NCBI RefSeq assembly: GCF_001898575.1
Contig: NZ_MKUD01000010.1
Location: 485,110-549,109 of the forward strand
From: Spirosoma sp. 48-14
GTDB taxonomy: Bacteria > Bacteroidota > Bacteroidia > Cytophagales > Spirosomataceae
Reading direction: 5' to 3'
Length of the DNA: 64,000 nt
Part shown: piece after piece, positions 11,712-60,950 of the stretch
Numbering within the stretch: position 1 is the stretch's first letter
Layout of the letters: the number at the start of each line of letters is the position of its first letter
Position numbers and translations under genes: made by a program
The notes under the pieces: generated by a model
Databases searched by the model: none
Told to the model about the DNA's origin: nothing
What the model saw: only the letters and a program-made list of their open reading frames with translations

Positions 11712-12407
11712 TTAACTTAAATAGAAAAGGAAAATAGATAATAAATAGTGAGCTTTAAGTTCTTCTCTGATTTTAGCTAATGCCCTGCTAATAAGCCGCT
11801 CTACGGCACTTACAGTTAGGCCCATTTCACTGGCAACTTCTGCATATTTTTTACCTTCCAGCCGATTTAATTGAAAGGCCTTTTTAGCCTGCTGTGGTAA
11901 ACCCTGAATGGCTGCATCCAGCTTTTGACTTAATTCATGAAATTGAGTGATTTCATCAGGTCGTAAAACCGTTGTATTGTTAACATCCTGAAAGTCGATG
12001 GAACTGCTTTCGAAGGTAACATTTCGATTTAATTCGAGTTTCAAACAATTATGGGCCCGATTCCTAACCGATATGTATAGATAAGCCCGATACGACATGG
12101 TAATCTGTTCGTAGGCTTTATTCTTCCAGAAGTTCGTAAATACCTCGGCCACAATGTCTTCAGCTAGTTCCTTTGAATACACATAGCGAATGGCATGGTT
12201 ACAGAGATTGGTGTAGTATTTGCGAAAGAGCAGCTCAAAACCTTCTCTCGGCGATTGGTCAAAACATTTTTTTATAAAGTATTCGTCCGAAACCACTTTC
12301 GTTTCTGGTAGATCCTTCGAAACCCGAACGTAATGCTTTCCAACAGTAAAATCATCGCTCTCCTGATTCGCCTGTATCATGATTTGGTGGGTAAGCTCAA
12401 TGGTCAA
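11712..12407 (-). CDS. ECF-type RNA polymerase sigma factor
   Basis: Sigma-70 family, extracytoplasmic-function type, probably directing transcription of the following glycan genes. Region 2 is visible (FELLFRKYYTNLCNHAIRYV, then ELAEDIVAEVFTNFWKN), and region 4 is the helix-turn-helix KYAEVASEMGLTVSAVERLISRALAKIRE. The N-terminus is about 40 residues longer than usual (MTIELTHQIMIQANQ...VVSDEYFIKKCF), so a start at a later codon is possible. The gene precedes fecR by about 40 bases and heads the SusC/SusD locus. Confidence 0.92.
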   Translation of the reverse strand: MTIELTHQIMIQANQESDDFTVGKHYVRVSKDLPETKVVSDEYFIKKCFDQSPREGFELLFRKYYTNLCNHAIRYVYSKELAEDIVAEVFTNFWKNKAYEQITMSYRAYLYISVRNRAHNCLKLELNRNVTFESSSIDFQDVNNTTVLRPDEITQFHELSQKLDAAIQGLPQQAKKAFQLNRLEGKKYAEVASEMGLTVSAVERLISRALAKIREELKAHYLLSIFLFYLS

Positions 12408-44487: not shown

Positions 44488-44506
44488 GGCTTTACAGGAC
44501 TGAGCT
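44488..44506 (+). ncRNA. Late-gene hairpin element, copy 1 (variant loop)
   Basis: Stem GGCTT/GAGCT (two wobble pairs) with loop TACAGGACT at 44493-44501. The stem ends at the base before the terminase small-subunit ATG. A loop variant of the copies before other late genes, two substitutions from TACAGGCCC. A TATTATTG at 44469-44476 may be a -7 box. Confidence 0.6.
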
Positions 44507-45115
44507 ATGGAATCTATAGACCCCGACTTTGCGCCGGATAATGAGGACAACGAAGACACTAACGAGTATAAGGGGCCGGACTACTTTAACGCGCTCAATG
44601 TTCGCCAACGGTTATTTGTAGAGGAATTTGTAAAATGTGGCAATGCGACGAAGGCCGCGAAGAAAGCCGGGTATTCGACTAATCTAGCTTCGGCGGCTAC
44701 TATTGGCTACAGATTGTTGAGAAATGTTGAGATTTCTAAGGCAATCGAACAGTATTTAGACGACAGGACGCTAAAAACAAATCAAATACTATTTAAGCTG
44801 TCTCAAAAGGCCGAAGCGTCAATAGAACCGTTTGTAGAGTCCTACGGCCGGGGAATGATGTTTGATTTTTCCTCAAAAAAGGCGCGGGCCGCGTTCCATA
44901 CGATCAAGAAGTATAAAACTGGAAAGTACGGGGCTGAAATTGAATTTCACGACCCTATACGCGCTATGGTAGCTATAGAACAGATACGTCATAGAGCATT
45001 TGATAAAAAGATAGTACCCCCGGCAAATAGCCCAATTACTGACGATGTAAGCCAACTTACGGACGATGAACTACAACGCGAGATTGAGGAACTTGCACGA
45101 AGAACGGCTTCGTAG
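44507..45115 (+). CDS. Phage terminase small subunit
   Basis: Recognises phage DNA for packaging. The Terminase_2 pattern reads LNVRQRLFVEEFVKCGNATKAAKKAGYS, a helix-turn-helix DNA-binding domain near residues 30-65, followed by helical oligomerisation segments and an acidic C-terminus. 202 residues fits. It overlaps the large-subunit gene by 50 bases and starts the late block. Confidence 0.88.
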   Translation: MESIDPDFAPDNEDNEDTNEYKGPDYFNALNVRQRLFVEEFVKCGNATKAAKKAGYSTNLASAATIGYRLLRNVEISKAIEQYLDDRTLKTNQILFKLSQKAEASIEPFVESYGRGMMFDFSSKKARAAFHTIKKYKTGKYGAEIEFHDPIRAMVAIEQIRHRAFDKKIVPPANSPITDDVSQLTDDELQREIEELARRTAS

Positions 45116-46559
45116 ATTGCGGCTATTGGATTCTAGCAACTCAAAAGACCGTTTCTATCATTATTTATCACACATAGATTCAGCCTATAAATTGCAATGG
45201 TTTCACCGCGTTATTGCGGAAAAACTGCAATTGGTGCATGAGCGTAAGATTAAAAAACTTATGATTTTCATGCCGCCCCAACACGGCAAAACGTCAGCGT
45301 CTACCCGAACGTTTCCCGGTTGGGTATTAGGTAAAAAGCCTGATACAAAAATTGCTGTAGTCTCTTATTCTGCAACCATTGCCCGCCGTTTTAATCGGGA
45401 TATAAAACGCCGAATGTCTACCCAGGCATATAGGCAACTATTCCCCGAAATTTTATTAGGTGATACAAAAAACGGTTATACCAATAATAATGATATAGTT
45501 GAAATTGTCGGCAAAGATGCCGCTAAAGAGGGGTTTATCTATACCGTTGGCGTTGGCGGTTCTCTTACGTCGGTAACGGTCGATTTAGGGATTATTGACG
45601 ACCCAATTAAAGACCGGAAAGATGCACTAAGCCCAACGATACGCGAAAATATTTGGGGTTGGTATTGTGATGTTTTCGAGACTCGCTTACACAATGATTC
45701 CGCCCAAATACTTATACAAACGCGTTGGCATGAAGACGACTTAGGCGGGCGATTGCTCGAACGTGACGGCCTGTATTGTGAATCTAACCCGACCGGCTGG
45801 GTAGTTGTATCCTTTCCCGCGCTTCGTACTCCTGACATTAACGACTTCGACCCCCGGCCCGTTGGCGCGGCTTTATGGCCCGAAAAACATAGCCAGGCTA
45901 AAATAGAAAAAGTCAAAAAAGATAATCCGGTAACGTTTAACGCGCTTTATCAGCAAGACCCGAAACCCTCGCCCGATTCGCTGGTTTTCCCGAACTGGAT
46001 AGAAATAGATGAATGGCCCGAACATTTAGAAACACAATACGGCATCGGTGGTGATTTCGGTTTTACCAATGACCCGACAACCTTTATACGGATTGCCCGC
46101 GAAGGCTACAAACTGTATTTGGACGAACTTGTATATGAAACCGGATTAACCAACCAAAAGATTTTACAACGCTACTACGAAAAAGGAATACCCGCCGAAA
46201 TACAAAGCATATGGGATAAGGCCGAACCGAAATCTATTGCAGAATTAAAGATTGGTACGTTAATCGAAACGTCCGAAGGTATATATAGTTTACCGGGTAT
46301 CAATGCGAAGGGTAGCGACAAAGGGCCGGGTAGTGTCGAAGCCGGTATAAGCAAGCTAAATGAATTTGAAGTCTATTACACGGCTCGAAGCCTTAATATA
46401 AAGCGGGAAAAGAACCATTATCAGTACGTCATGCACAACGGCGTATCGACTAACATTCCTATAGGTGAACATAATCATACTATGGACGCTATACGCGGGT
46501 ATGTATTTACAAAATGGGGCCGACCGCAACGGGTTATGTCCGGCCCGAATAACGATTAA
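45066..46559 (+). CDS. Phage terminase large subunit
   Basis: ATP-driven DNA-packaging motor and nuclease. Walker A-like MPPQHGKT near residue 70, Walker B DLGIIDDP with the catalytic acid near 175, ATPase coupling TRWHEDD. The nuclease acids are in IGGDFGFTNDPT near 325, and HNHTMDAIRGYVF near the C-terminus. 497 residues is normal. It starts inside the small subunit gene and is followed by a terminator. Confidence 0.95.
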   Translation: MNYNARLRNLHEERLRRLRLLDSSNSKDRFYHYLSHIDSAYKLQWFHRVIAEKLQLVHERKIKKLMIFMPPQHGKTSASTRTFPGWVLGKKPDTKIAVVSYSATIARRFNRDIKRRMSTQAYRQLFPEILLGDTKNGYTNNNDIVEIVGKDAAKEGFIYTVGVGGSLTSVTVDLGIIDDPIKDRKDALSPTIRENIWGWYCDVFETRLHNDSAQILIQTRWHEDDLGGRLLERDGLYCESNPTGWVVVSFPALRTPDINDFDPRPVGAALWPEKHSQAKIEKVKKDNPVTFNALYQQDPKPSPDSLVFPNWIEIDEWPEHLETQYGIGGDFGFTNDPTTFIRIAREGYKLYLDELVYETGLTNQKILQRYYEKGIPAEIQSIWDKAEPKSIAELKIGTLIETSEGIYSLPGINAKGSDKGPGSVEAGISKLNEFEVYYTARSLNIKREKNHYQYVMHNGVSTNIPIGEHNHTMDAIRGYVFTKWGRPQRVMSGPNND

Positions 46560-46563
46560 TAAA

Positions 46564-46588
46564 AAGGCCCGGTTAGTTGCCGGGCTTT
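46564..46588. terminator. Terminator after terminase
   Basis: Stem AAGGCCCGG with CCGGGCTTT (one wobble). It ends terminase transcription and, read leftward, the small minus-strand gene whose stop codon lies in the loop. Confidence 0.8.
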
Positions 46589-46893
46589 GTTGCGTTTCGT
46601 ACCTCTTCAATCAATCTTAGTAACGCGGCTTCGTCTATCAGTTCGTTGTAAAACGTATCGGCTATAATTCCTTTGCCGATTAGGTAGGCTTTCAGTTTGG
46701 GCAAAAAATACGAATTGATTAACCGACCCCGATTTAGTAAGTCGTGCAAAATATCATTCATATCCTTAGCGATATACTCGAAATCGCCGTCGATAATATG
46801 CCACATTATAACAGGCCGTTGCTCTAGTGTCATTGGTTGATTATAGGTTTTAGCTCCGTCAAAGGTAAAATAATCCTTCCTATTTACTTGCAT
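46573..46893 (-). CDS. Minus-strand gene inside the phage late block (moron candidate)
   Basis: 106 residues from the ATG ending at 46893 (MQVNRKDYFTFDGAK). It runs against the late genes, between the terminase terminator and a strong late promoter. Its region is AT-rich relative to neighbours. Helical C-terminal half (ELIDEAALLRLIEEV). This is the standard arrangement of a moron, a lysogenic conversion or immunity gene. No family recognised; function unknown. Confidence 0.65.
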   Translation of the reverse strand: MQVNRKDYFTFDGAKTYNQPMTLEQRPVIMWHIIDGDFEYIAKDMNDILHDLLNRGRLINSYFLPKLKAYLIGKGIIADTFYNELIDEAALLRLIEEVRNATKPGN

Positions 46894-46943
46894 ATTATAC
46901 GTACAATAAAACGGTATATTAGCAATTATTTTGTAAAAAATAT

Positions 46944-46972
46944 TTTGCCGTTTCAGATTCTTTCTATTTTTG
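46944..46972 (+). promoter_or_regulatory. Late promoter (TTTG ... TATTTTTG)
   Basis: TTTG at 46944-46947 and TATTTTTG at 46965-46972, spaced 17 bases, resemble the Bacteroidota -33/-7 pair (usual spacing 19). It precedes hairpin copy 2 and the first virion gene after terminase. Confidence 0.6.
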
Positions 46973-46988
46973 TCGCAAATAGGTGAAA

Positions 46989-47005
46989 CGACTACAGGCC
47001 CGTCG
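46989..47005 (+). ncRNA. Late-gene hairpin element, copy 2
   Basis: Stem CGAC/GTCG with conserved loop TACAGGCCC (46993-47001). It lies 34 bases before the ATG at 47040 and about 16 bases after the -7 box, near the expected 5' end of the mRNA. Confidence 0.65.
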
Positions 47006-47039
47006 AACAACCTACCATCTGTTTTTATCTCGTTATACG

Positions 47040-47663
47040 ATGATTTACCAAGATTGTAGCGCAATCGCGGCGGCTTTACAGCTAGTAACAGCCGACCAAT
47101 GTAGTACGCTCATTCAACAGGTTAGACGGGTTATTATTCAGCGTATGGGTAACGCGGCCGTAACGACGGCCAACGCCAACACGCTTGGAACCTGGACAAC
47201 CCCGTTAGCCGCTTCGGATAATACCCGAATGGTTTCCATTATTAACAAGTTCTACGACCCTGCTATTACGGGTTCTGAGCCTGTTAAGATTGGCAACAAC
47301 GATAACACCACGCCGGGGGGCAAAACCCAAATTGTAGGCGAAACGACGCCCGACTTTAGCGGGATGTTTACCGGCCTATCGGTTCAGGCATTTACCGACC
47401 TACGCACCTTGTTTGCAGAGGGGCAAAGCTCGGTTGATATTGACCGGCTGGGGGCTTACATCATTTGCGGTGACAATCAATTACTGATGCACAAAAACGG
47501 CGGGCCTATCCCTATTCATATGCCGTTTGTCGGTACGCCATCGGGCGGCAAACTCCATGAACTAACCCAATTCCGGGTAACATGGGAGTTTGACAAGGAA
47601 TGGTACACAAACGCCGGGGTTCAGAAATTGACGTTTAACCCGGCCTTGTTGGTGAACCCCTAA
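47040..47663 (+). CDS. Phage virion protein, unknown (near portal)
   Basis: 207 residues from the ATG at 47040 (MIYQDCSAIAAAL); an ATG at 46983 would run through the hairpin element and is rejected. Rich in Thr, Gly and Asn with beta pattern (WTTPLAASDNTRMVSIINKFYDPA; FRVTWEFDKEWY), typical of head or tail structural proteins. Its position between terminase and portal, with its own promoter and hairpin, suggests an abundant virion component. No family recognised. Confidence 0.65.
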   Translation: MIYQDCSAIAAALQLVTADQCSTLIQQVRRVIIQRMGNAAVTTANANTLGTWTTPLAASDNTRMVSIINKFYDPAITGSEPVKIGNNDNTTPGGKTQIVGETTPDFSGMFTGLSVQAFTDLRTLFAEGQSSVDIDRLGAYIICGDNQLLMHKNGGPIPIHMPFVGTPSGGKLHELTQFRVTWEFDKEWYTNAGVQKLTFNPALLVNP

Positions 47664-47719
47664 ACCCGGCTCTACTAACCTGTAAATAGTTGTAAAACGC
47701 TTTTAAACCAAGTAGAACA

Positions 47720-47926
47720 ATGGTTAAGATTCAGGAAGCCGATAGCGGCCACGGTCAAAACTTAGGCCGGGTTCAGGAAGTAACCGAACAGCATTTTGAG
47801 GACTTGAAAAAGTTGGACAAGAAACTAGGAGTTACTACATGGGTAGAAGTCCCCAAAGACGCCAAAGTTACCGACGAAGCCGGAACCCAGGCCGTCGAAC
47901 CAACCGAACCCAAATCTAAAAAATAA
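47720..47926 (+). CDS. Small phage protein between virion gene and portal
   Basis: 68 residues, charged (EQHFEDLKKLDKKLGVTTWVEVPKDAK) with a Pro/Glu/Lys tail. Ends 6 bases before the portal gene. Possibly a head accessory or assembly protein; no family recognised. Confidence 0.6.
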   Translation: MVKIQEADSGHGQNLGRVQEVTEQHFEDLKKLDKKLGVTTWVEVPKDAKVTDEAGTQAVEPTEPKSKK

Positions 47927-47932
47927 CCGGCC

Positions 47933-49771
47933 TTGCTTTCACCTAACGACGATATTGTAGCAAAAGCCGACGTAAAAGCGTTACGGGCGGCTGTTTATGA
48001 CGATCAGAGACACAGGCTACACGCCGAATCTGCTACGTCAGAAGCGGCCGCTTCTCCCTATTTCAAAAGATGGGTTCGGGAGTTTGTAACGCCCGTTATT
48101 ACGTCCGCGTCGAAGCGTCGGCAGGTGCTTAAACAAATGGTTTGGCCCCCGGTAACGGTTGAACTCGTTGACGAAATCGTAGATATGGCGTCGGCGGTAC
48201 ACCATGCCGAAGACCGTTTTGTTAAGCTCGATTTTACCGACGCGTCACTAGAAGCCGATTGGAATGCCTACGCAGAACGGGCGGGTATCTGGCAGTTCAT
48301 TACCCGAAATTGCCATAGTGCGTTATTTTCCCGGCCTAACTCGCTGGTTGTTGTCGATCTGCCTAAAGTCCAAACTACGGACTTTCCAGAGCCTTACGTA
48401 TATCTATTACCGTTGGAACGGGTTCGGGCCATGAAAGCCCTAAACGGGCCGTCTGATTCGGGACTACTCGAATTTGTTTGGTTCGATACCGACCAAAAAG
48501 ACGTTACCGCGCTGTTTGATACGGTCGATATATCGTTTTGGAAAAACGACGGCAATGGTAAATGGGTACAGGTAGGCGAAGACATACCGCACAATCAACC
48601 GATTTGCCCGGTTTTCAAGATGTGGGACGATGTAGAGGACAGCAACCCGCTAACCTCTAACACGATGTTACGCCCGGTTTTAGGCTGGTTAGATAGGTTG
48701 ATGTTTTGGGATTCGGGCGGGGAAAGTAACGACCTAGCGGCCGCGTTTTTGATGTTTTGGTACTATGAAGCAACCAAAAAGCAGGAGCCAGCCAGCCAAC
48801 CGACTGTAGGATTATCCGGCCCCAAACCCGGCGTTCTAAAGGGTGGTAAGATGATCGACGGTAAGCCCTATACGCCAAAGGACGATAAAGGCGGCTGTGA
48901 TGAAGAAGACAAAGAATCTATTTACGGCCCCGGTACAAAGTTAGGCGTTCCGGCTCCATTGGCGAAGGATGAAGCCGACCTACGGCCCCCGGCCGGTTGG
49001 ATTGCCGCCCCAATCGACAATTTGGAGTATATCGCTAACAAGGTGGTTAACATCCGGCAACGGGTACGGCAAACGGCAACGGGTTACGACGGTGGGGCGT
49101 CCGGTCAACCGATGAACGAACGGCAAATCATGCAAATACTAGAGCGTTCGCGGATAATCTACAACTATTTGGCAGAACACTACGAAGTATTAACCAAACG
49201 CGTTTTAGAGGTATTCGGCCGCTATCGGTACGGCCCCTATTTCGTCGGTGCAACCGTTTCGTTAGGTCGTCGGGTTTCAATGCTTACCGGCGATCAGTTG
49301 ATAGCTCTTTACCAGACGGCGAAGGATGCCGGTTTAGGTGCATGGTTACTCGAAGAACTTACGCTAATGCAACAGGAATACTTCGCCCGTACCGATGCCA
49401 GCCGCAAACTACGCTATAAGGTTCTAAGGGATTTAGACACGTATTCAAATTACAGCCCCGACGAACTTTACAATTTAGGTATCAATACCAGTGACCCCGA
49501 AGGGTACGCTATCAGCGTCGGCCTTATGGGGTTTGTCTACCGATTTGAACGCGAAGCGGATATACTGATAGAACAGTTCTGCAACGCGCCCGACTACGAT
49601 AACCGGATTTCTCAAATTAAAACTTCTTTTAAACGCTATGTCTCAGAACAAAAGCCAATCCAGCCCAACCCCGCTAACGACCCCAACGCCCCCGGCAACA
49701 ACCCCGGAAAGTCAGGCAACAGCAACCCAGGCAACGGACGCAAACGCAAGCCAGCCAACCCCGGAACCTGA
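47933..49771 (+). CDS. Phage portal protein (TTG start)
   Basis: Portal ring through which DNA enters the capsid. The 612 residues and the order TerS-TerL-(two genes)-portal-scaffold-capsid support this. Typical pieces are YFKRWVREFVTPVI, then KVVNIRQRVRQTATGYDGGASGQPMNERQIMQILERSRIIYNYLAEHYE, the C-terminal portal helix. It uses TTG at 47933, since no ATG lies nearby in frame. Its last 134 bases overlap the next gene in another frame and encode a Pro/Asn/Gly-rich tail. Portal identification rests on context and pattern, not on a hit. Confidence 0.8.
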   Translation: MLSPNDDIVAKADVKALRAAVYDDQRHRLHAESATSEAAASPYFKRWVREFVTPVITSASKRRQVLKQMVWPPVTVELVDEIVDMASAVHHAEDRFVKLDFTDASLEADWNAYAERAGIWQFITRNCHSALFSRPNSLVVVDLPKVQTTDFPEPYVYLLPLERVRAMKALNGPSDSGLLEFVWFDTDQKDVTALFDTVDISFWKNDGNGKWVQVGEDIPHNQPICPVFKMWDDVEDSNPLTSNTMLRPVLGWLDRLMFWDSGGESNDLAAAFLMFWYYEATKKQEPASQPTVGLSGPKPGVLKGGKMIDGKPYTPKDDKGGCDEEDKESIYGPGTKLGVPAPLAKDEADLRPPAGWIAAPIDNLEYIANKVVNIRQRVRQTATGYDGGASGQPMNERQIMQILERSRIIYNYLAEHYEVLTKRVLEVFGRYRYGPYFVGATVSLGRRVSMLTGDQLIALYQTAKDAGLGAWLLEELTLMQQEYFARTDASRKLRYKVLRDLDTYSNYSPDELYNLGINTSDPEGYAISVGLMGFVYRFEREADILIEQFCNAPDYDNRISQIKTSFKRYVSEQKPIQPNPANDPNAPGNNPGKSGNSNPGNGRKRKPANPGT

Positions 49772-50258
49772 AAAAACGTTTACCGCCGATCAGGTTAAAG
49801 CCATTGCCGCCGAAACCGCTAAATCGGTATTGGATGCCTACAAAGCCGAAGAAGCCGAAAAAGCGAAGGCGCAACGGGCGTATATGGTTGGTACGCCAAT
49901 TGAACAGCCAACCGTAGAGCAAAAAACCGATGAGGTTAAGCCAGCTACGAAAGAGTTGTACGGCAATAAGGATAAAAAGAAACAGTTCAACATTTCCCCG
50001 TTGATTCCTTCGCTGAAAGGGTTGCCCGACGATAAGTTTATTATGATTGGGTTAAAGTATCATAAAAACGCGGACGGCACATTAGTAGAGGACGCAAGCG
50101 GACGACGGGCGCAAATTGTCGCGCCGGGCGATTATCAGAACTCTACCCAGCCGATTACGAAAGGGGCGTCTGATAATTTCTATGATGTGATTTATGGCAA
50201 ACCCGGCGACGGGGGCGGCTATGTCGTCGTACATGAGCCGACCAAAGTAGAGCAATAA
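49638..50258 (+). CDS. Phage head-associated protein overlapping the portal gene
   Basis: 206 residues. The first 45 are Thr/Pro/Gln/Ala-rich and lie inside the 134-base overlap with portal. Then a helical FTADQVKAIAAETAKSVLDAYKAEEAEKAKAQ segment and a beta-rich C-terminal part (IMIGLKYHKNADGTLVEDASGRRAQIVAPGDY). Possibly a capsid decoration or minor head protein. Unknown family. Confidence 0.7.
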   Translation: MSQNKSQSSPTPLTTPTPPATTPESQATATQATDANASQPTPEPEKTFTADQVKAIAAETAKSVLDAYKAEEAEKAKAQRAYMVGTPIEQPTVEQKTDEVKPATKELYGNKDKKKQFNISPLIPSLKGLPDDKFIMIGLKYHKNADGTLVEDASGRRAQIVAPGDYQNSTQPITKGASDNFYDVIYGKPGDGGGYVVVHEPTKVEQ

Positions 50259-50274
50259 GATAACAACCCCGATA

Positions 50275-50310
50275 GGGGCGGTCGGTTTCTTTCGGGTTTC
50301 TGACCGCCCC
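50275..50310 (+). terminator. Intergenic hairpin before the scaffold-like gene
   Basis: A perfect 9-bp GC-rich stem (GGGGCGGTC/GACCGCCCC) with an 18-base loop, without a T-tract. It may process or stabilise the late mRNA rather than terminate it. Confidence 0.6.
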
Positions 50311-50337
50311 GTAACTAATCAATCAACCAGTTTAAAA

Positions 50338-50362
50338 CCATAGCCTACAGGCCCGATTATGG
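50338..50362 (+). ncRNA. Late-gene hairpin element, copy 3 (contains the ATG)
   Basis: Stem CCATAG/TTATGG (one G-U) plus a closing C-G around loop TACAGGCCC (50346-50354), with a C-A mismatch. The ATG of the scaffold-like gene (50359-50361) lies in the 3' arm, so folding would hide the start codon. Confidence 0.7.
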
Positions 50363-51270
50363 ATATTACAGTAGAAAACATTGCCGGGATTGAGATTCCC
50401 GAAGACTTACAGGCCGCTATTTTCGCTAAACTCGAAGCGAAAGCCCCGGATTATCTAACCGGAAAAGGCTTTATTGTAAAGCCAAAAACCGATTACGATA
50501 ACGAGTTATCGACCTACGCCGAACAAGCCGTAACCAAAGCTGTAGGCGAAGAATCGGCTAAGTTGTACGGCAGTATCGACGGTCTGTTAGCTATTGCGCT
50601 GGATGAAGCCAAACCTGATGGTATGAGAACCGCCGTTTGGGTGAAACAGCTACAGGACGCCGGTAAGTTGCCGCTTTCGGATGAAGCTATGAAGGCTATC
50701 CGGGACAAAATAAAAGGGTCGGCCGCAACCAAAGACGCGGTTATTGACCAACTGAAAGAGCAACTTAACACCGAAAAAACCGCCCGCGAAAACGATAAAG
50801 TAGAAACGGTAAAACAGGCCGTTCGTTCTACCGTTAACGCCGATTTGCGTACCGCCCCGGTTGTTATTCCTGGCGATCTGAAAGACGAAGCCGCCAAAAC
50901 AGCCGCCAAAAATACCGCAATTGCCGACCTGAAAGAGTATTTTAATACGCTCTACGAAGGCAAACGCAACGACGACGGCGACATTTATTTTGTCAAAAAA
51001 GGGACGGATAGACCCCTAATGAATGCCGCCGAAAACCGGCCAATGACGCCAACCGAAATTATCCGGGCTAACCACTCTATGTATTTGGCTCCGGTTAGCC
51101 ATAAACAGGAAGGGGGCGGAACAGGCAAACCCGATACAGGTGGTCAACCCGGCGCGTTTACGTCGTTGACGGAAATTCGAGTTTATGCTATTAACAAGTT
51201 GGGTTACGCGCCAAATACGCCGGAGTTCTTCAAGTTTATTGATGAGGAACGCAAGAAAGCCAAACTGTAA
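50359..51270 (+). CDS. Scaffold-like phage head protein
   Basis: 303 residues, strongly helical and charged in the middle (IKGSAATKDAVIDQLKEQLNTEKTARENDKVETVK) with a Gly-rich hinge (HKQEGGGTGKPDTGGQPGAF) before a C-terminal helical cap. It directly precedes the capsid gene, the normal place for scaffold. No protease domain is visible. Function is inferred from order and composition. Confidence 0.7.
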   Translation: MDITVENIAGIEIPEDLQAAIFAKLEAKAPDYLTGKGFIVKPKTDYDNELSTYAEQAVTKAVGEESAKLYGSIDGLLAIALDEAKPDGMRTAVWVKQLQDAGKLPLSDEAMKAIRDKIKGSAATKDAVIDQLKEQLNTEKTARENDKVETVKQAVRSTVNADLRTAPVVIPGDLKDEAAKTAAKNTAIADLKEYFNTLYEGKRNDDGDIYFVKKGTDRPLMNAAENRPMTPTEIIRANHSMYLAPVSHKQEGGGTGKPDTGGQPGAFTSLTEIRVYAINKLGYAPNTPEFFKFIDEERKKAKL

Positions 51271-51321
51271 TAAATCCTTAAAAATAACAGGTAGGATTCC
51301 CGCGCAGTTTCGCGCCTACCC

Positions 51322-51342
51322 GTTGCCTACAGGCCCGGCAAC
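51322..51342 (+). ncRNA. Late-gene hairpin element, copy 4
   Basis: Perfect stem GTTGCC/GGCAAC around loop TACAGGCCC (51328-51336), 32 bases before the capsid ATG. Confidence 0.7.
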
Positions 51343-51374
51343 AGCAACAGGGATAAAAAATCCTTTTTACTGCT

Positions 51375-52418
51375 ATGGCTAACGTCATAACAAATTTGCT
51401 CTTACCTAACGTCATGTTAGACGTTAACCCGGCCGGGTTTGGTCGTCTGGAAAACCGTATGTCTCATTACGGCGCGTTGAATACGTTCTACAACAATACC
51501 CCGTTGTTGTTCGACGCTGAAACGCTTGCTAAAATCCGGGCGATTCCCTACACGCGGACAATTCAAATTCCTGTGTTGAACGGGGTTGATTGGACGATTA
51601 TAACGGTTCGGACTTGTGCCATTACAACCCAGGCACTAGGCGCAACGCTTAAAACGGTAGTGCGTTTTCACGTTGAATTTGACGTAGATATTATTCCTTC
51701 GGAATACCAAAATAACTACGTTACCTACCAAGCCGCGTTAGCCGCCAAAATTAAAAACGCCAAAAAAGCGGTTTACAAGTATCTCGATCAAATGTGCGCT
51801 ACGTTCCTAGATGCCAACAAGGAAACGACGCAAACGATTGGGGCAAACCTGCTCTATACGGGCGTTGCCGGGGAGTACCAAGTACCGAAGCTGATTGATT
51901 TCTATAATAACCTCGGCGCTATTATGGAAATGATGGATACGGAAGGCCCGTACTTCGACATTGCGAATACGGCGGCTTTGGCAGACCAAAACTGGTTAAA
52001 CAATCCGGGCGGGGGTGCAATCTACGATACGGCGGCAATCAAAAAGGCGGCTAATATTGCCGAATTTGATTATACAAACCGGATTAGTCCGGGGGCCGGT
52101 CAACGGGGTATCCACTACGTCGGGCCGATGGGTTCGATTGGTATTGTGAACTTTATTGACTTCGACTATCAGGGTTTGCCCGACCTGAACGCTATTGACG
52201 TAACCGACGAAAAGGATATTTCGGACGTTCGTTTTTGGGGCCGAATCAATGATAACGTTTACCCAACTTGGGAATGGGGAACCCAACAGCTTTTAGACTG
52301 TACAGGCGGGGCAAAATCGTATGGTGTTAAACACGCTGCCGACTTCGCACTTTTTGCCGACTTTACCCGCGTTGCCGGTGAATCGCCTATCAAGCGGTTT
52401 AGCGTAATGAACGCGTAA
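51375..52418 (+). CDS. Major capsid protein candidate
   Basis: 347 residues. The order portal, scaffold-like, this gene, then a strong terminator points to the major capsid protein. The pattern is N-terminal arm, long helix (AALAAKIKNAKKAVYKYLDQMCATFLDANKE), and beta/loop domains (VGPMGSIGIVNFIDFDYQGLPDL). No clear named capsid family is recognised. Identification is from context. Confidence 0.78.
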   Translation: MANVITNLLLPNVMLDVNPAGFGRLENRMSHYGALNTFYNNTPLLFDAETLAKIRAIPYTRTIQIPVLNGVDWTIITVRTCAITTQALGATLKTVVRFHVEFDVDIIPSEYQNNYVTYQAALAAKIKNAKKAVYKYLDQMCATFLDANKETTQTIGANLLYTGVAGEYQVPKLIDFYNNLGAIMEMMDTEGPYFDIANTAALADQNWLNNPGGGAIYDTAAIKKAANIAEFDYTNRISPGAGQRGIHYVGPMGSIGIVNFIDFDYQGLPDLNAIDVTDEKDISDVRFWGRINDNVYPTWEWGTQQLLDCTGGAKSYGVKHAADFALFADFTRVAGESPIKRFSVMNA

Positions 52419-52446
52419 TCTTTGCTCAATTGAACGTGGATTGTCT

Positions 52447-52483
52447 AAAATCCCTCTCCGAGTTGTGAGGGGGATTTTTTTTT
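52447..52483 (+). terminator. Terminator after the capsid gene
   Basis: Stem AAAATCCCTCTC with GAGGGGGATTTT (one wobble) followed by nine T. A terminator after the capsid gene is common and would allow capsid mRNA to exceed tail mRNA. Confidence 0.88.
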
Positions 52484-52499
52484 AAACCTCAACTAGAAC

Positions 52500-53756
52500 A
52501 TGGTCGATACTATTTCACTTTCTAAACTGTTGGCCGGGGTGGTTGGCCTTTACCCAGGCTTCGCGGCTGGCTCCGATCAACCGGCCGGGTATCACCGTGA
52601 ACCCGTCGTTTATCTGTCGGACGCCCATAAGCTACTAAGGCCCGATATATTGCACGATTTAGGGCCGAATCTGGCTAAAATCGACTACCCGGCTTACAGC
52701 CCAACTAAAACGTATTTTCGATACGATGTGGTAAAGGGTAACGACGGCAAACTTTACGAGAATCAGGTAAAGGGCAATTTAGGCCATGCCGTCAGCGAGT
52801 CAGATTACTGGCAACCGACAACCGCGCTAAGTGCATGGTATAGCCGAATTGAACGCGGGGCAATTTCTAAACTGGCTTTACTGCTTGCGTCGGGTTCGGT
52901 TCCGCTTCTGGATAATCAGGCTATTTTTAGCTTAGAGGGTAACGCGTCCGATACGATCAACAAACAAAATCGGTTTGTTGGTTGGCGTATCTACGTATCT
53001 GGCAACGATACCGCGTTAGAGGTATTGAAAGCCGCGTTACAACTTTCCGGGGCCGTCGAAAACTTTCCGTTATACCTCTATCATTCGACACAGGACGCCC
53101 CGCTAACAGTTTTGAATCTTACAGGTAATACGCCCGGTCGGTCGATCTGGAAGGACATTAACGAAACGCTCTATCAGCGTATCGGCGGCTATTATCTGTT
53201 TGGCTACTACGAAAACGACCTACCAACAAACGTTTTTGCAATCGGGGCGAATCGCTCGTTTGCTGTAGGCGCGGCCTGTCGTAGTTGCGGGGGTGGGGTG
53301 GATGCCTATTTGCTCGAAGGTCGAAGCCCGTTTATTGCCATTGAGCCGGTTTACATCCCGAACGTTTCGACCCCGTTAACGATGGATTTAGCCGAACTGT
53401 CGGCGGTTCAGGTTTCTTCTCAAACATGGGGGTTAAATCTGGTTATATCGGCCAAATCTGACGCAACCCGGCCGCTAATTGCCAATAAGGACAATTTGGT
53501 TAACGCGCTTCTGTATTCGATTGCTTGCGACGTTCTGGAAGAAATTTCTACCTCTGACCGGGTAAACGCTACGGCTAAGAATATGACCAATCAAGCCTAT
53601 ATAGCTCTAAACGGCCAGAAGGACACCGACAAAGGACTAAAGGCCGAACGTAACAAAATCATTGCCGATACAAAGGCAACGTTTTCGACAATTTCACCCG
53701 CAACGCCCCCCGAAAAACAACGGCCCGGTATTTCTATCGGTAGCATGTGGGATTAA
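52500..53756 (+). CDS. Phage structural protein, unknown
   Basis: 418 residues, after the capsid terminator. Mainly beta and loop segments; a YRRIGGYYLFGYYENDLP-like aromatic stretch and a CRSCGGG cysteine motif (near residue 265). The C-terminal charged helix (LKAERNKIIADTKATF) may aid assembly. Likely a head-tail connector or tail protein; no family recognised. Confidence 0.7.
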   Translation: MVDTISLSKLLAGVVGLYPGFAAGSDQPAGYHREPVVYLSDAHKLLRPDILHDLGPNLAKIDYPAYSPTKTYFRYDVVKGNDGKLYENQVKGNLGHAVSESDYWQPTTALSAWYSRIERGAISKLALLLASGSVPLLDNQAIFSLEGNASDTINKQNRFVGWRIYVSGNDTALEVLKAALQLSGAVENFPLYLYHSTQDAPLTVLNLTGNTPGRSIWKDINETLYQRIGGYYLFGYYENDLPTNVFAIGANRSFAVGAACRSCGGGVDAYLLEGRSPFIAIEPVYIPNVSTPLTMDLAELSAVQVSSQTWGLNLVISAKSDATRPLIANKDNLVNALLYSIACDVLEEISTSDRVNATAKNMTNQAYIALNGQKDTDKGLKAERNKIIADTKATFSTISPATPPEKQRPGISIGSMWD

Positions 53757-53761
53757 ACACG

Positions 53762-54208
53762 ATGGACGGGATAACGCTACATAACTGTTTTGTGGCTCCG
53801 CTTTTGCGGATAACGCCCGATATGCTCAACCGGGTTTTATCGGATGTAATAGCGGCCAACGCCGTATTAATAGCCGATCTGAACCGGAAACAACTTGCGG
53901 CCGGTATTCGCGCCGATAACTCAGCAATAAGCCCGTACTATCGACCGGATACGGTTCAAATAAAACGGGATAAAGGTCAACGAACCGACCGGGTTACGTT
54001 GCACGATACGGGCGATTTTTACGAATCAATTTTTACGGCTGTGTTCGATCAGGCTTTCGACTTAGAAGCAACCGACCCCAAAACCGAAGAATTGAAAGCA
54101 AAATACGGTGACGACATTTTAGGGCTAACCCCCGAAAACCGGGCCGTACTGATTGAAGTGATTAAACCGCAATTTATCGACCTGTTAAAAAAAGAAATTG
54201 CATTATGA
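53762..54208 (+). CDS. Head-tail joining or tail-completion protein candidate
   Basis: 148 residues from the ATG at 53762 (MDGITLHNCFVAPLL); an earlier ATG adds 5 residues. The segment VQIKRDKGQRTDRVTLHDTGDFYESIF resembles the loop of HK97 gp10-like tail-completion proteins (R-x-L-x-TG-x-F). It overlaps the next gene by 4 bases. Assignment inferred from motif and position. Confidence 0.65.
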   Translation: MDGITLHNCFVAPLLRITPDMLNRVLSDVIAANAVLIADLNRKQLAAGIRADNSAISPYYRPDTVQIKRDKGQRTDRVTLHDTGDFYESIFTAVFDQAFDLEATDPKTEELKAKYGDDILGLTPENRAVLIEVIKPQFIDLLKKEIAL

Positions 54209-54390
54209 AGCTCTTAAAAAAGATAACAGACTTTGGGGTTATCTCACTATCTGGCACATATGTAAAATATGCAAAGGAATATCCATTCTCACTGAATATA
54301 AACCTTTGGTATATATCAATTGCCATGGTAGCATGGGAAATAGGCGCGTATATCGGTGAAAAGCTAATGGATTTAATCAGTAGTTTCTAA
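54205..54390 (+). CDS. Small phage membrane protein
   Basis: 61 residues with one hydrophobic helix (INLWYISIAMVAWEIGAYIG). Coupled by 4-base overlaps to both neighbours in the head-tail module, where a membrane protein is unexpected. Confidence 0.6.
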   Translation: MKLLKKITDFGVISLSGTYVKYAKEYPFSLNINLWYISIAMVAWEIGAYIGEKLMDLISSF

Positions 54391-54944
54391 TGAGCCAGAA
54401 CCTAACCCCGCCCGTTGGTATCGTTACCGATCAAACCGGCATAGACGAAGTAATAGCAATCATTCAGGAGCGATTAACTACGCTCGATTGGCTGGAAGTA
54501 TCGTTAGGCCGCGTTCGACCGGCTATCAAAACGGCGGGCGGATTGCCTGAACCCTGGATTTACAAAGAAGACGGCGAAAGTTACCGGGCTTACCCGAACG
54601 ATACGCTAAAATCCTTTACGTGTCTGTACGCACACGACGACGAAACGATTAAAAACGAGGTTTTCGGCATTCGGACGCTATCTGTTATCTGTTGGGCCAA
54701 CCTAAAAACGTTAGGTATCGAACCGCCAACGGTCGAAGGCTTAAAACAGCAAGTTATTAGAAAGTTACTCGATTTGTATTGCGTCCTATCGGTTAATAAA
54801 TCGTTCGACCAAACGACAGCCGGGGCAACTGGTATTTACCCAGGCTTCGACGTTTCGGGGCTAGAAAGCTCGTATCTATCGTATCCATACGGCGGCTTTC
54901 GTATCGAATTGACCGTCCATTATACCAACCTGTGTAACTCTTAG
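54390..54944 (+). CDS. Phage neck or tail-terminator protein candidate
   Basis: 184 residues, beta/alpha with helix IDEVIAIIQERLTTLDWLE and C-terminal beta (GGFRIELTVHYTNL). Size and position between gp10-like and tail chaperone genes fit a tail terminator or neck protein. No family recognised. Confidence 0.6.
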   Translation: MSQNLTPPVGIVTDQTGIDEVIAIIQERLTTLDWLEVSLGRVRPAIKTAGGLPEPWIYKEDGESYRAYPNDTLKSFTCLYAHDDETIKNEVFGIRTLSVICWANLKTLGIEPPTVEGLKQQVIRKLLDLYCVLSVNKSFDQTTAGATGIYPGFDVSGLESSYLSYPYGGFRIELTVHYTNLCNS

Positions 54945-54947
54945 GCC

Positions 54948-55202
54948 ATGTACCAATATTTAGTCCTTTGCTCTCTAATTGGCGTTACGGGCGTTATCCT
55001 AGTCGATAAATGGAAGGTTGATAATTATATGAACGTTCGCGGGGTTCGCTGGTGGCCGCGTGAACCTTGCCGACTTTGCCGGGCTTTCTGGTTTGGTGTA
55101 ATCTGCTACGTCAGTCTACTACTTTGGCCGTCGATCATTTACCTGTGGGTTCCGTTGGCCTGTATTCCTATTCAAAAAATCGTCGGTAAACTATCAACCT
55201 AA
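54948..55202 (+). CDS. Small phage membrane protein with CxxC
   Basis: 84 residues with hydrophobic helices at both ends (LVLCSLIGVTGVILV; FWFGVICYVSLLLWPSIIYLWVPLACI) and a PCRLC motif. Its last base overlaps the next gene. Could insert into the host envelope; role unknown. Confidence 0.6.
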   Translation: MYQYLVLCSLIGVTGVILVDKWKVDNYMNVRGVRWWPREPCRLCRAFWFGVICYVSLLLWPSIIYLWVPLACIPIQKIVGKLST

Positions 55203-55618
55203 TGCAAACTATCACACTACCGGGCGGCTCTATCGTATTATACGATTCGCCCAGCCGTTTACCAGAATCCCGACGCGTGTTATACACCTACTATATGGCT
55301 TTCCATAGTGGAATAGGGTCAACAATGGGCGATGTGGATAGGCATTTTGAGCCAATAGTAAGTTTAATTGGCGCAAATGAAATCGAATCGGCTATAACCG
55401 AAATCAACAACCTTCGGTATTTGCTCTTTGGGCTTATGAATAAGCAAACAGCCCCTAACGCCTTAGCCTTTTGCTGTTGCATTCATTCGGTAAATAATGT
55501 TCGTTGGGACGATTTCGTAGAAGAGGGATTAGAAAAGCTTTTAGGCCAATTAAGCGAGTACGGGCTTACACAAGAACATATCGTTTCCTATCATCAGCTA
55601 TACGAAAAAAAGTCTTAG
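55202..55618 (+). CDS. Tail assembly chaperone, short form (gpG-like)
   Basis: 138 residues directly before the tape-measure gene, the position of lambda gpG. Terminates QLYEKKS with TAG at 55616-55618. The end of the frame carries the slippery site used to make the long form. It probably binds the tape measure with the long form during tail assembly. Sequence identity to known gpG families is not recognised; size and signal support the role. Confidence 0.82.
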   Translation: MQTITLPGGSIVLYDSPSRLPESRRVLYTYYMAFHSGIGSTMGDVDRHFEPIVSLIGANEIESAITEINNLRYLLFGLMNKQTAPNALAFCCCIHSVNNVRWDDFVEEGLEKLLGQLSEYGLTQEHIVSYHQLYEKKS

Positions 55619-55980
55619 GCCCGTTGCAAAAATCGTTTCCTAGGCATTTCGTAGACACAAAAACGGAATACTATGAGTTACTGCAACGGGCTTTTTTGGT
55701 TCAGGCAACCGAACTACTCAACCCCGAAGACCCAAGTTTAGAAGTTAGGCGACAAGGGGTAGAAAGAGAGTTTATTGAGCGCATAAAGCCTACCGTTTTA
55801 GTTGGGTCAAACAATATGCCCGATATGATTCTAAAAGCGTACAGAAAGAATAAATTTTTGCTTATCAGTGAAGGTCTGCCAGTAAATGACGAAACCTCAA
55901 CACATGAGTTTTGGGGCTTTATGACAGACTTAGAAGATAAGTTTTACAGCCAAATTAACGGCAATAATAGTAACGACTAA
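55202..55980 (+). CDS. Tail assembly chaperone, long form by programmed -1 frameshift (gpGT-like)
   Basis: Ribosomes slipping -1 at A AAA AAG (55606-55612) join the first 137 residues of the short form to 122 more read in the -1 frame (from GTC at 55612: VLGPLQKSFPRHFVDTK...) and end at 55980, about 259 residues. The -1 frame is open for the whole required distance and needs no start codon of its own. Lambda gpGT and its relatives have the same arrangement and similar sizes. An independent start in this frame at 55504 is possible but would overlap by 115 bases and is not needed. Confidence 0.85.
55606..55693 (+). promoter_or_regulatory. Programmed -1 frameshift signal
   Basis: Heptamer A AAA AAG in the zero frame (GAA AAA AAG) at 55606-55612, spacer TCTT, then a 12-bp stem (55617-55628 with 55682-55693, one G-U at the base) with a 53-base loop. 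A AAA AAG is the strongest known bacterial -1 heptamer (dnaX). Confidence 0.85.
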
Positions 55981-56001
55981 ACTACAGGCCCGTATAGTCG
56001 T
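55973..56001 (+). ncRNA. Late-gene hairpin element, copy 5
   Basis: Stem ACGACTA/TAGTCGT, an A-A mismatch and AC/GT closing pairs around loop TACAGGCCC (55983-55991). It begins inside the last codons of the gpGT frame and ends 29 bases before the tape-measure ATG. Confidence 0.7.
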
Positions 56002-56030
56002 CAGTAACCAAACCCCTTATTTCTACGGGC

Positions 56031-60544: not shown

Positions 60545-60791
60545 GCCGGAAAATCCTTCTTCTGCGAACGCGTCGGCATTTTCGACAGTAAACGAGTGAT
60601 ACCGATTTTGCTCAATTTATTTGATTATTATGCATTCTAGTACGGTTTTTAATTTAGGAAAATAATAGATTGCCTTACAGGTTGTTGTAAATTTTGCGGT
60701 TTATATATTTTTAGCGTCCTAACGCCTATAGGTCTAGGAAAAATATTGCTCTATTCGCTTAAAAAGCCGCTTTGTCTCATTTAAAGCACCT

Positions 60792-60901
60792 ATGCCTATA
60801 GGTAAAAAGACCGTAAGGTGTAGGTAAAAAGGCCGATACCTATAGGTGAAAACACCGGGGGGTATAGGCAAAAACACCGAGAGGTATAGGCGAAAAGACC
60901 G
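60792..60901. repeat. Five tandem 22-bp iterons
   Basis: Units at 60792, 60814, 60836, 60858 and 60880, each exactly 22 bp and without gaps. The shared core is a TATAGG-like block followed by Y, R-AAAA and ending RCCG or ACCG (for example ATACCTATAGGTGAAAACACC in unit 3). A sixth, degenerate copy (CCTATAGGT) lies near 60724. Followed by an AT-only tract. Regular spacing of 22 bp places the sites on one face of the helix every two turns. Confidence 0.92.
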
Positions 60902-60950
60902 ACATAATATTATATATAATAATAAAATTAATAATACATTTAAAAAAAAA
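60902..60950. other. AT-rich tract next to the iterons (DUE candidate)
   Basis: Almost only A and T over about 48 bases, directly after the last iteron. AT tracts next to iterons are melted at plasmid and phage replication origins. The role here is inference. The surrounding stretch 60545-60791 and 60951-61012 shows no gene. Confidence 0.6.

Follow-up and report, generated by a model that had tools for sequence, protein, structure and literature searches.

Short hairpins whose conserved loop is read by a phage protein are known from the coat-protein operators of RNA phages and from lambda-type boxB. The hairpins bound by CsrA/RsmA likewise combine a GGA-type loop with variable stems near start codons. 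Here we describe a hairpin with a conserved loop that recurs before the virion genes of a prophage in Spirosoma sp. 48-14, within a window of 64,000 nucleotides (the whole stretch of DNA that was analysed; contig NZ_MKUD01000010.1, positions 485,110 to 549,109 of the forward strand), and before those of related phages. It is unlike coat-protein operators and boxB, which are single operators, or serve antitermination before early genes, and have other loops. It is also unlike CsrA/RsmA hairpins, in that the host genome has no CsrA match and four of the five window loops hold GGCCC, not GGA.

The translational operator of gp43, the DNA polymerase of phages T4 and RB69, resembles the element in having a conserved-loop hairpin that precedes the start codon by about 40 bases, together with sequence that overlaps the ribosome site (PMC3014915). 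It differs in serving a single autoregulated early gene and in its conserved upper stem. The present element occurs in two to eight copies per phage before virion genes; its stems are free, its loop is a different one and a second arm competes with it. RegA of T4 (PMC3014915) is similar in that one phage factor acts at the start regions of many mRNAs, whereas its sites are unstructured and A/U-rich and repress early and middle genes, the element being a hairpin before late genes. For phages of Bacteroidetes, a model based on phage bS21 proposes that ribosomes prefer late structural mRNAs (PMC9723584); this model is protein-based, unlike the element, and the words motif and hairpin are absent from that text. 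The GUCCY-hairpin, an entry in Table 1 of PMC2864571, is a hairpin candidate in Bacteroidetes and Proteobacteria that may be comparable with the element; GUCC is present in the antisense of some element loops. Titles and abstract openings of the literature on Bacteroidota phages, RNA motifs, late-gene translation and Spirosoma prophages, with passages of papers such as PMC8040213 (supplementary files lay outside the scope), gave no description of such an element.

Hairpins before the virion genes of a Spirosoma prophage

The original prediction had pointed to five hairpins with a common nine-nucleotide loop and stems that are complementary yet unlike in sequence, and all five were found where it had placed them, on the plus strand of the window. 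Copy 1 (44488..44506; GGCTT-TACAGGACT-GAGCT, five pairs, two of them G-U) stands directly before ATG 44507 of the terminase small subunit gene, assigned by a PHROG match, and copy 2 (46989..47005; CGAC-TACAGGCCC-GTCG, four pairs) before ATG 47040 of a head protein gene (phrog_8193). Copy 3 (50338..50362; CCATAGCC-TACAGGCCC-GATTATGG, 7 of 8 positions paired, with one C-A mismatch and one G-U) belongs to a virion gene called scaffold-like from its gene place (phrog_7970), whose start codon at 50359 lies inside the 3' arm, in line with the claim of a start codon within the stem. Copy 4 (51322..51342; GTTGCC-TACAGGCCC-GGCAAC, six pairs) precedes ATG 51375 of the capsid gene (phrog_7231, annotated as major capsid protein in relatives), and copy 5 (55973..56001; ACGACTAAAC-TACAGGCCC-GTATAGTCGT, 9 of 10 positions paired, with one A-A mismatch) precedes ATG 56031 of the tape measure gene. 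From hairpin end to ATG we measured 0 nt, 34 nt, an overlap, 32 nt and 29 nt for copies 1 to 5, which agrees with the predicted range of 0-34 nt or across the ATG. The loop TACAGGCCC occurs exactly four times in the window, always on the plus strand (46993, 50346, 51328 and 55983), and the loop of copy 1, TACAGGACT at 44493, differs from it at two positions.

Such a set is rarely produced by chance. A shuffle test, as had been proposed, was run on the 12.2-kb region: 1000 first-order Markov sequences never gave four copies of one 9-mer with at least four flanking pairs, the maximum being three copies of any 9-mer (2 of 1000) versus the four observed. Other 12.2-kb tiles of the window held one or two such copies, and a tile overlapping the element region held three. 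Across the 8.68-Mb genome CTACAGGCCCG occurs nine times; four of these are the window copies, and the other five have stems of one or two pairs. The window covers the late part of the prophage, and a sixth copy was found beyond its end (TTTCGC-TACTGGCCC-GCGAAA, then ATG; G000 C10:555741, where G000 is the host genome, which equals positions 11742-11762 of locus L286). When the 3' arms were permuted over the six copies of the host genome, only the true order, 1 of 720, reached the observed number of pairs. The ATG of the sixth copy opens a frame of only 22 codons; shortly downstream of this ATG a longer one begins in a different register.

Conservation and spread among related phages

Capsid searches led to five related phages or prophages with 44-48% capsid identity: L010, a contig from IMG/VR (of which L101 is a part), G030, G008, G021, carried by a host of the same genus, and L029/G174 from Larkinella soli. 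A search for words recurring in non-coding DNA, in which stems were ignored, returned CTACCGGAC in L010 and CTACGGACG in G008 before homologous genes, and pattern searches found the element in the remaining relatives too. Their loops are altered (TACCGGACG, TACGGACG and TACCGGACT), a variation between phages that the original prediction had not seen. The prediction would have failed had the loop been missing from all relatives; it survives this check in altered form, their loops being related rather than identical. In total, 34 copies were counted in six phages, with 6 in the window genome, 4 in L010, 8 in G030, 6 in G008, 8 in G021 (five of these read in locus L151, whose leaders agree with those of G021) and 2 in L029. 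The tally covers relatives at 44-48% capsid identity, while the closest capsids, P0002-P0009 (52-76%), lie outside it, as do a variant in the G030 capsid leader (TATGGACG, stem of 4) and a candidate in G169. One pattern listing of 34 loop matches contributed 13 copies, and among the 21 matches dropped two had stems of 3.

In 30 of the 34 copies the ATG that follows begins a same-strand frame of at least 60 codons; of the remaining four, the copy in L286, L023 4808 and L151 12225 precede a short frame or none, and at L151 115 the end of the locus cuts the frame. The element stands before the phrog_8193-type head gene in all six phages, before the scaffold-like and capsid genes in five of six each, and before the tape measure gene in all five phages where the gene start was seen. 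The large terminase of the window (45066-46559) is 59-63% identical to those of L029 and of the control phage L027, and blastp gave no match to it among the frames of G030, G008, G021 and L010. Since it is not common to all carriers, the element follows the head-gene module; the terminase pattern itself is that of a mosaic packaging module. Two local arrangements were also observed. The G030 tape measure gene has two tandem copies upstream (L022 13437 and 13489), one with loop TACCGGACG and one with TACGGACG, and L151 contains two back-to-back pairs on opposite strands, 2958(-)/3018(+) and 12225(-)/12285(+), about 9.3 kb apart and with similar leaders, one of these four copies preceding a short frame only.

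The stems covary. In an alignment of 23 of the 34 copies (A3), from which near-duplicates, window copies 3 and 5 and L010 9902 were omitted, 82.6% of stem cells pair compared with 54.0% in shuffles, and the covariation score was 0.689 versus 0.185 for shuffled arms and 0.086-0.144 when the partner was slid by one to three columns. The closing pair is C-G in 22 of the 23, while the next two vary (AU, UA, GC, CG and GU; CG, GC and AU). Over all 34 copies, at least three contiguous pairs were found in 30, with a permuted mean of 12.1 and a maximum of 20 (5000 permutations); once identical arms are merged, they are present in 19 of the 23 different arm pairs (permuted mean 5.2, maximum 12; 20,000 permutations). 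All matches to the loop pattern in 14 loci were also grouped by location, regardless of stem: a stem of at least 3 accompanied 25 of 33 in leaders versus 7 of 131 in reading frames; the figure for other intergenic matches was 3 of 20, two of the three being counted copies. Two counted copies, L010 9902 and L029 9942, have no real stem.

A blind script that seeks a hairpin loop word common to most gene leaders of a locus returned the element in five of the six element phages (window, L010, L022, L023 and L030) and in none of ten controls; it missed L029, with its two copies. The best words of the ten control loci (capsid identity 23-30%) were unrelated and occurred in at most two leaders in eight of them, in three in L041 and, as an A/T-rich word, in four in L020. 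A covariance model, the check that had been suggested, was built from 23 of the 34 copies, mostly those of the relatives; at E ≤1 it gave 35 matches, with overlapping loci counted twice, that represent 31 of the 34 copies, and no match in the ten control loci. Covariation, the blind scan and the comparison of leaders with reading frames together give strong support to the claim of an RNA-type hairpin with conserved loop and complementary variable stem before virion genes.

A covariance search of 222 genomes of the host family with strict filters gave a match at E ≤0.1 in 34 genomes, and clusters in G008, G021 and G030 only; in this strict search G000 itself had no match, and one single match lay inside a reading frame (L295). 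Matches in L306, L310 and L312 resemble by eye the complements of tRNA D-arms (AGTCCGGTA); such sequences can give false positives in searches for the motif. A single candidate at G169 C4:78265 (L291) has a 5-bp stem and, by eye, a second arm GACCGTCC shortly before an ATG; no related prophage was recognised nearby, and in blastp its surroundings matched frames of G008 twice, with no match in the other three sets. Capsid searches found no further close relative in 390 genomes of the order and, in genome contigs, no match with the window capsid and two with a capsid alignment. The scaffold-like protein had no tblastn match in 50,697 phage records. In IMG/VR, two 14-base patterns gave, among at least 240 loci, at least 25 locus-strand rows with two or more loose matches; five loci were inspected around their matches, and among these only L151 repeats the element before ATGs.

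Sequences between the hairpin and the start codon

The loop ends 4-10 nt from the ATG in 8 of the 34 copies and 30-85 nt from it in 26. The element shares with phage translational operators of the gp43 and coat-protein type a conserved-loop hairpin close to a start codon. In the longer leaders we observed a second arm that competes with the hairpin before the AUG, which was overlooked by the original prediction and is new here. In 25 leaders the loop lies at least 25 nt from the ATG (30-58 nt found; L022 13437, which a further copy separates from its ATG, was omitted). The end of these leaders is complementary to GGACG of the loop and the adjoining first bases of the 3' arm, with a combined p of 6.5e-13 versus shuffles when these leaders, though related, are treated as independent. 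Second arms fit their own leaders, scoring 405 versus 361 (sd 11.7) when swapped among leaders, a value reached in 1 of 2000 swaps. In copy 5, GCCCGTA (55988..55994, plus strand), which comprises the 3' half of the loop and the start of the 3' arm, can form 7 bp (p 0.0005) with the second arm TACGGGC (56024..56030, plus strand) directly before ATG 56031; a further example is GGACGGTGA/TCACCGTCC at L010 16799. The minimum-energy fold contains the pairing of loop and second arm in 20 of the 25 long leaders. Where the 3' half of the loop pairs with a second arm near the AUG, the conserved hairpin would be excluded; in most leaders with a second arm the paired run overlaps the 3' stem arm, in many by only 1-2 nt.

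Upstream of about half the copies a promoter-like box is present, likewise missed by the original prediction. The 40 nt before the element contain TAnnTTT(G/A) in 18 of the 34 copies, where 1.7 are expected from shuffles, and in 17 of these 18 it is located 10-20 nt before the loop. Examples are the TAnnTTTG box TATTTTTG at 46965..46972 (plus strand), upstream of copy 2, and the TATTTTTG box 17 nt before the loop of the sixth copy. TAnnTTTG corresponds to the consensus of the -7 promoter element of the host; if the boxes are this element, the hairpins behind them would begin close to or at +1. The scaffold and capsid copies of the window, L010, G008 and G021 are not preceded by such a box. Predicted stable hairpins, putatively linked to the element, lie upstream of copy 3 (GGGGCGGTC...GACCGCCCC, 50275..50310, plus strand) and abut copy 4 (GGTAGG...CCTACC, 51290..51321, plus strand), and similar ones precede L010 8901, L030 8978 and L023 11487; these hairpins upstream of internal copies may be 3' ends or processing sites.

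Possible modes of action and reader

The place beside or before the AUG, the conserved loop on a free stem and the second arm by the AUG suggest that RNA structure is used to control translation. On balance we lean towards an RNA element that acts in cis on the translation of virion-gene mRNAs and has two states in most long leaders. A short hairpin whose stem is free in sequence would present the loop UAC(N)GG(A/C)C beside the start codon or tens of bases upstream of it, and a phage or host RNA-binding factor would read this loop. Most leaders of more than 25 nt would offer an alternative: an arm only a few bases ahead of the AUG, typically ACCGUCC, to which the 3' half of the loop and the start of the 3' arm can pair. 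This competing fold would bury the start region and represent the off state, whereas a factor holding the short hairpin would free it, the on state, such that head, scaffold, capsid and tail proteins could be made together. We infer the action as RNA, the factor, the switching and the identity of the on state, and we infer likewise, following the original prediction, that a phage protein may bind the hairpin to control late translation or mRNA processing. A more far-reaching version, to which we give only tentative credence, is a translational regulon: via a bistable leader, a single factor that reads the loop would turn on the mRNAs for head, scaffold, capsid and tail proteins jointly, in bacteria whose ribosomes make no use of Shine-Dalgarno pairing. 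Shine-Dalgarno sequences go unrecognised by the ribosomes of Bacteroidia (PMC9976891).

Several observations weigh against this two-state model or soften the numbers behind it. The conserved hairpin is part of the minimum-energy fold in only 6 of the 34 copies and many stems have 3 bp; with a hairpin this weak, a ligand is expected. Taken one by one, only 17 of the 25 leaders have a second arm of their own that outscores the average of the other arms, and five of the 25 long leaders have no second arm at all (window copies 2 and 4, L010 9902, L023 11487 and L029 9942), four of these preceding capsid genes. Window copies 3 and 5 and L010 9902, which were omitted from A3, have interrupted or absent stems, and their omission favours its covariation score, although the 34-copy permutation test uses all copies, and kinship of the copies by descent makes p values too small. 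G-U and A-C counts (5 versus 6) give no pointer to the sense strand. Finally, the window copies score low (17-21 bits) in the covariance model based on relatives, and copies 3 and 5, like L010 9902, were not reported by it.

The boxes upstream of 18 copies would also suit two readings in which translation is not the controlled step. If they place the hairpins near +1, as the -7 consensus would have it, a structure close to or at the beginning of late mRNAs might block decay from the 5' end, or it might mark a cleavage site between cistrons, for which the stable hairpins before several internal copies (window 3 and 4, L010 8901, L030 8978 and L023 11487) could be adduced; such a role in stability or processing leaves unexplained both the placement 0-10 nt from or across the AUG and the second arm beside it, and we regard it as improbable. 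The same boxes, together with wobble use that leaves the strand unfixed, could mark a DNA site acting on late transcription, be it for an activator, for recruitment of an anti-terminator or as an extruded cruciform. We consider this very unlikely, as a duplex site would keep the letters of its half-sites whereas the arms here vary and covary, some copies touch or span the AUG, and the scaffold and capsid copies named above have no box.

Within RNA-based control, the sign and the geometry could differ from those proposed. A virion or regulatory protein that binds the hairpin by the AUG and blocks the ribosome would provide feedback on structural protein synthesis; the eight copies whose loops end 4-10 nt from the ATG lie inside the ribosome footprint, and most known phage operators repress (PMC3014915). 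In the other 26 copies, however, the loop is 30-85 nt away and it is the competing fold, not the hairpin, that covers the start region, and we consider repression rather unlikely. Stem and loop-to-arm pairing might also coexist as an H-type pseudoknot of the kind found in the T4 gene 32 operator, which would place the hairpin beside the AUG. Coaxial stacking is permitted by the order of the arms and by the direct junction of loop and 3' arm, and distant hairpins would come to lie where near ones already are. Yet the paired run usually extends into the 3' stem arm, as in GGACGGTGA/TCACCGTCC of L010 16799, and shares at least the closing pair, which would make hairpin and second-arm fold mutually exclusive in those leaders; we regard a pseudoknot as unlikely.

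As for the reader in the two-state model, a blastp comparison of window-side frames with the other carriers gave virion genes and a few small frames, with no RNA-binding candidate among them. A frame of 206 amino acids (49638-50258) is found in all five relatives, without a match in nine control loci or an informative family match. A TRAM RNA-binding domain by the portal gene, annotated in phage tant8-1, was rejected, with a Pfam E of 0.06, under the cut-off, and no match in the window protein. Phage bS21 was discarded as well, each of G000, G008, G021, G030 and G174 having one chromosomal gene and none in its prophage stretch (L010 was not searched). For a CsrA/RsmA site, PF02599 had no match in G000 while 3 of 14 control genomes match; GGA is present in the loop of window copy 1 and of relatives, while window copies 2-5, like the sixth copy, have GGCCC instead. 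A phage-borne reader unrelated to CsrA may still exist. Loop pairing to rRNA was dismissed because loops differ between phages of one host genus (TACAGGCCC versus TACGGACG), which does not fit a single rRNA target; some leaders may resemble helix 45 of 16S rRNA, and no 16S gene was found in this assembly. A repeat of the REP/RAYT type, which would have a conserved stem sequence and a placement independent of gene starts, was ruled out by stems that vary and covary and by copies that sit before gene starts in sense. No known Rfam family matched above the gathering cut-off in Rfam 15 for the window and five relative loci, in keeping with the original prediction, which knew of no described element of this kind; at relaxed E all matches were far under the cut-off, one of them, mir-627 (E 0.94), overlapping a leader in L151. 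Apart from the element, the window contains imperfect repeats around CCTATAGGT/GGTATAGGC with AAAA(G/C)ACCG at 60750-60910, between the late genes and the next gene block, which from their sequence could be iterons or operator sites.

Taken as a whole, this is a covariation-supported and apparently undescribed RNA element that is repeated before virion genes of tailed phages and is predicted to be bistable in many leaders. It offers a testable handle on the post-transcriptional timing of late phage genes and on start-site choice in Bacteroidia, and the reader of its loop could be a new kind of late regulator. If the proposed regulon is real, its role at the ribosome would parallel that of a late sigma factor at the promoter.

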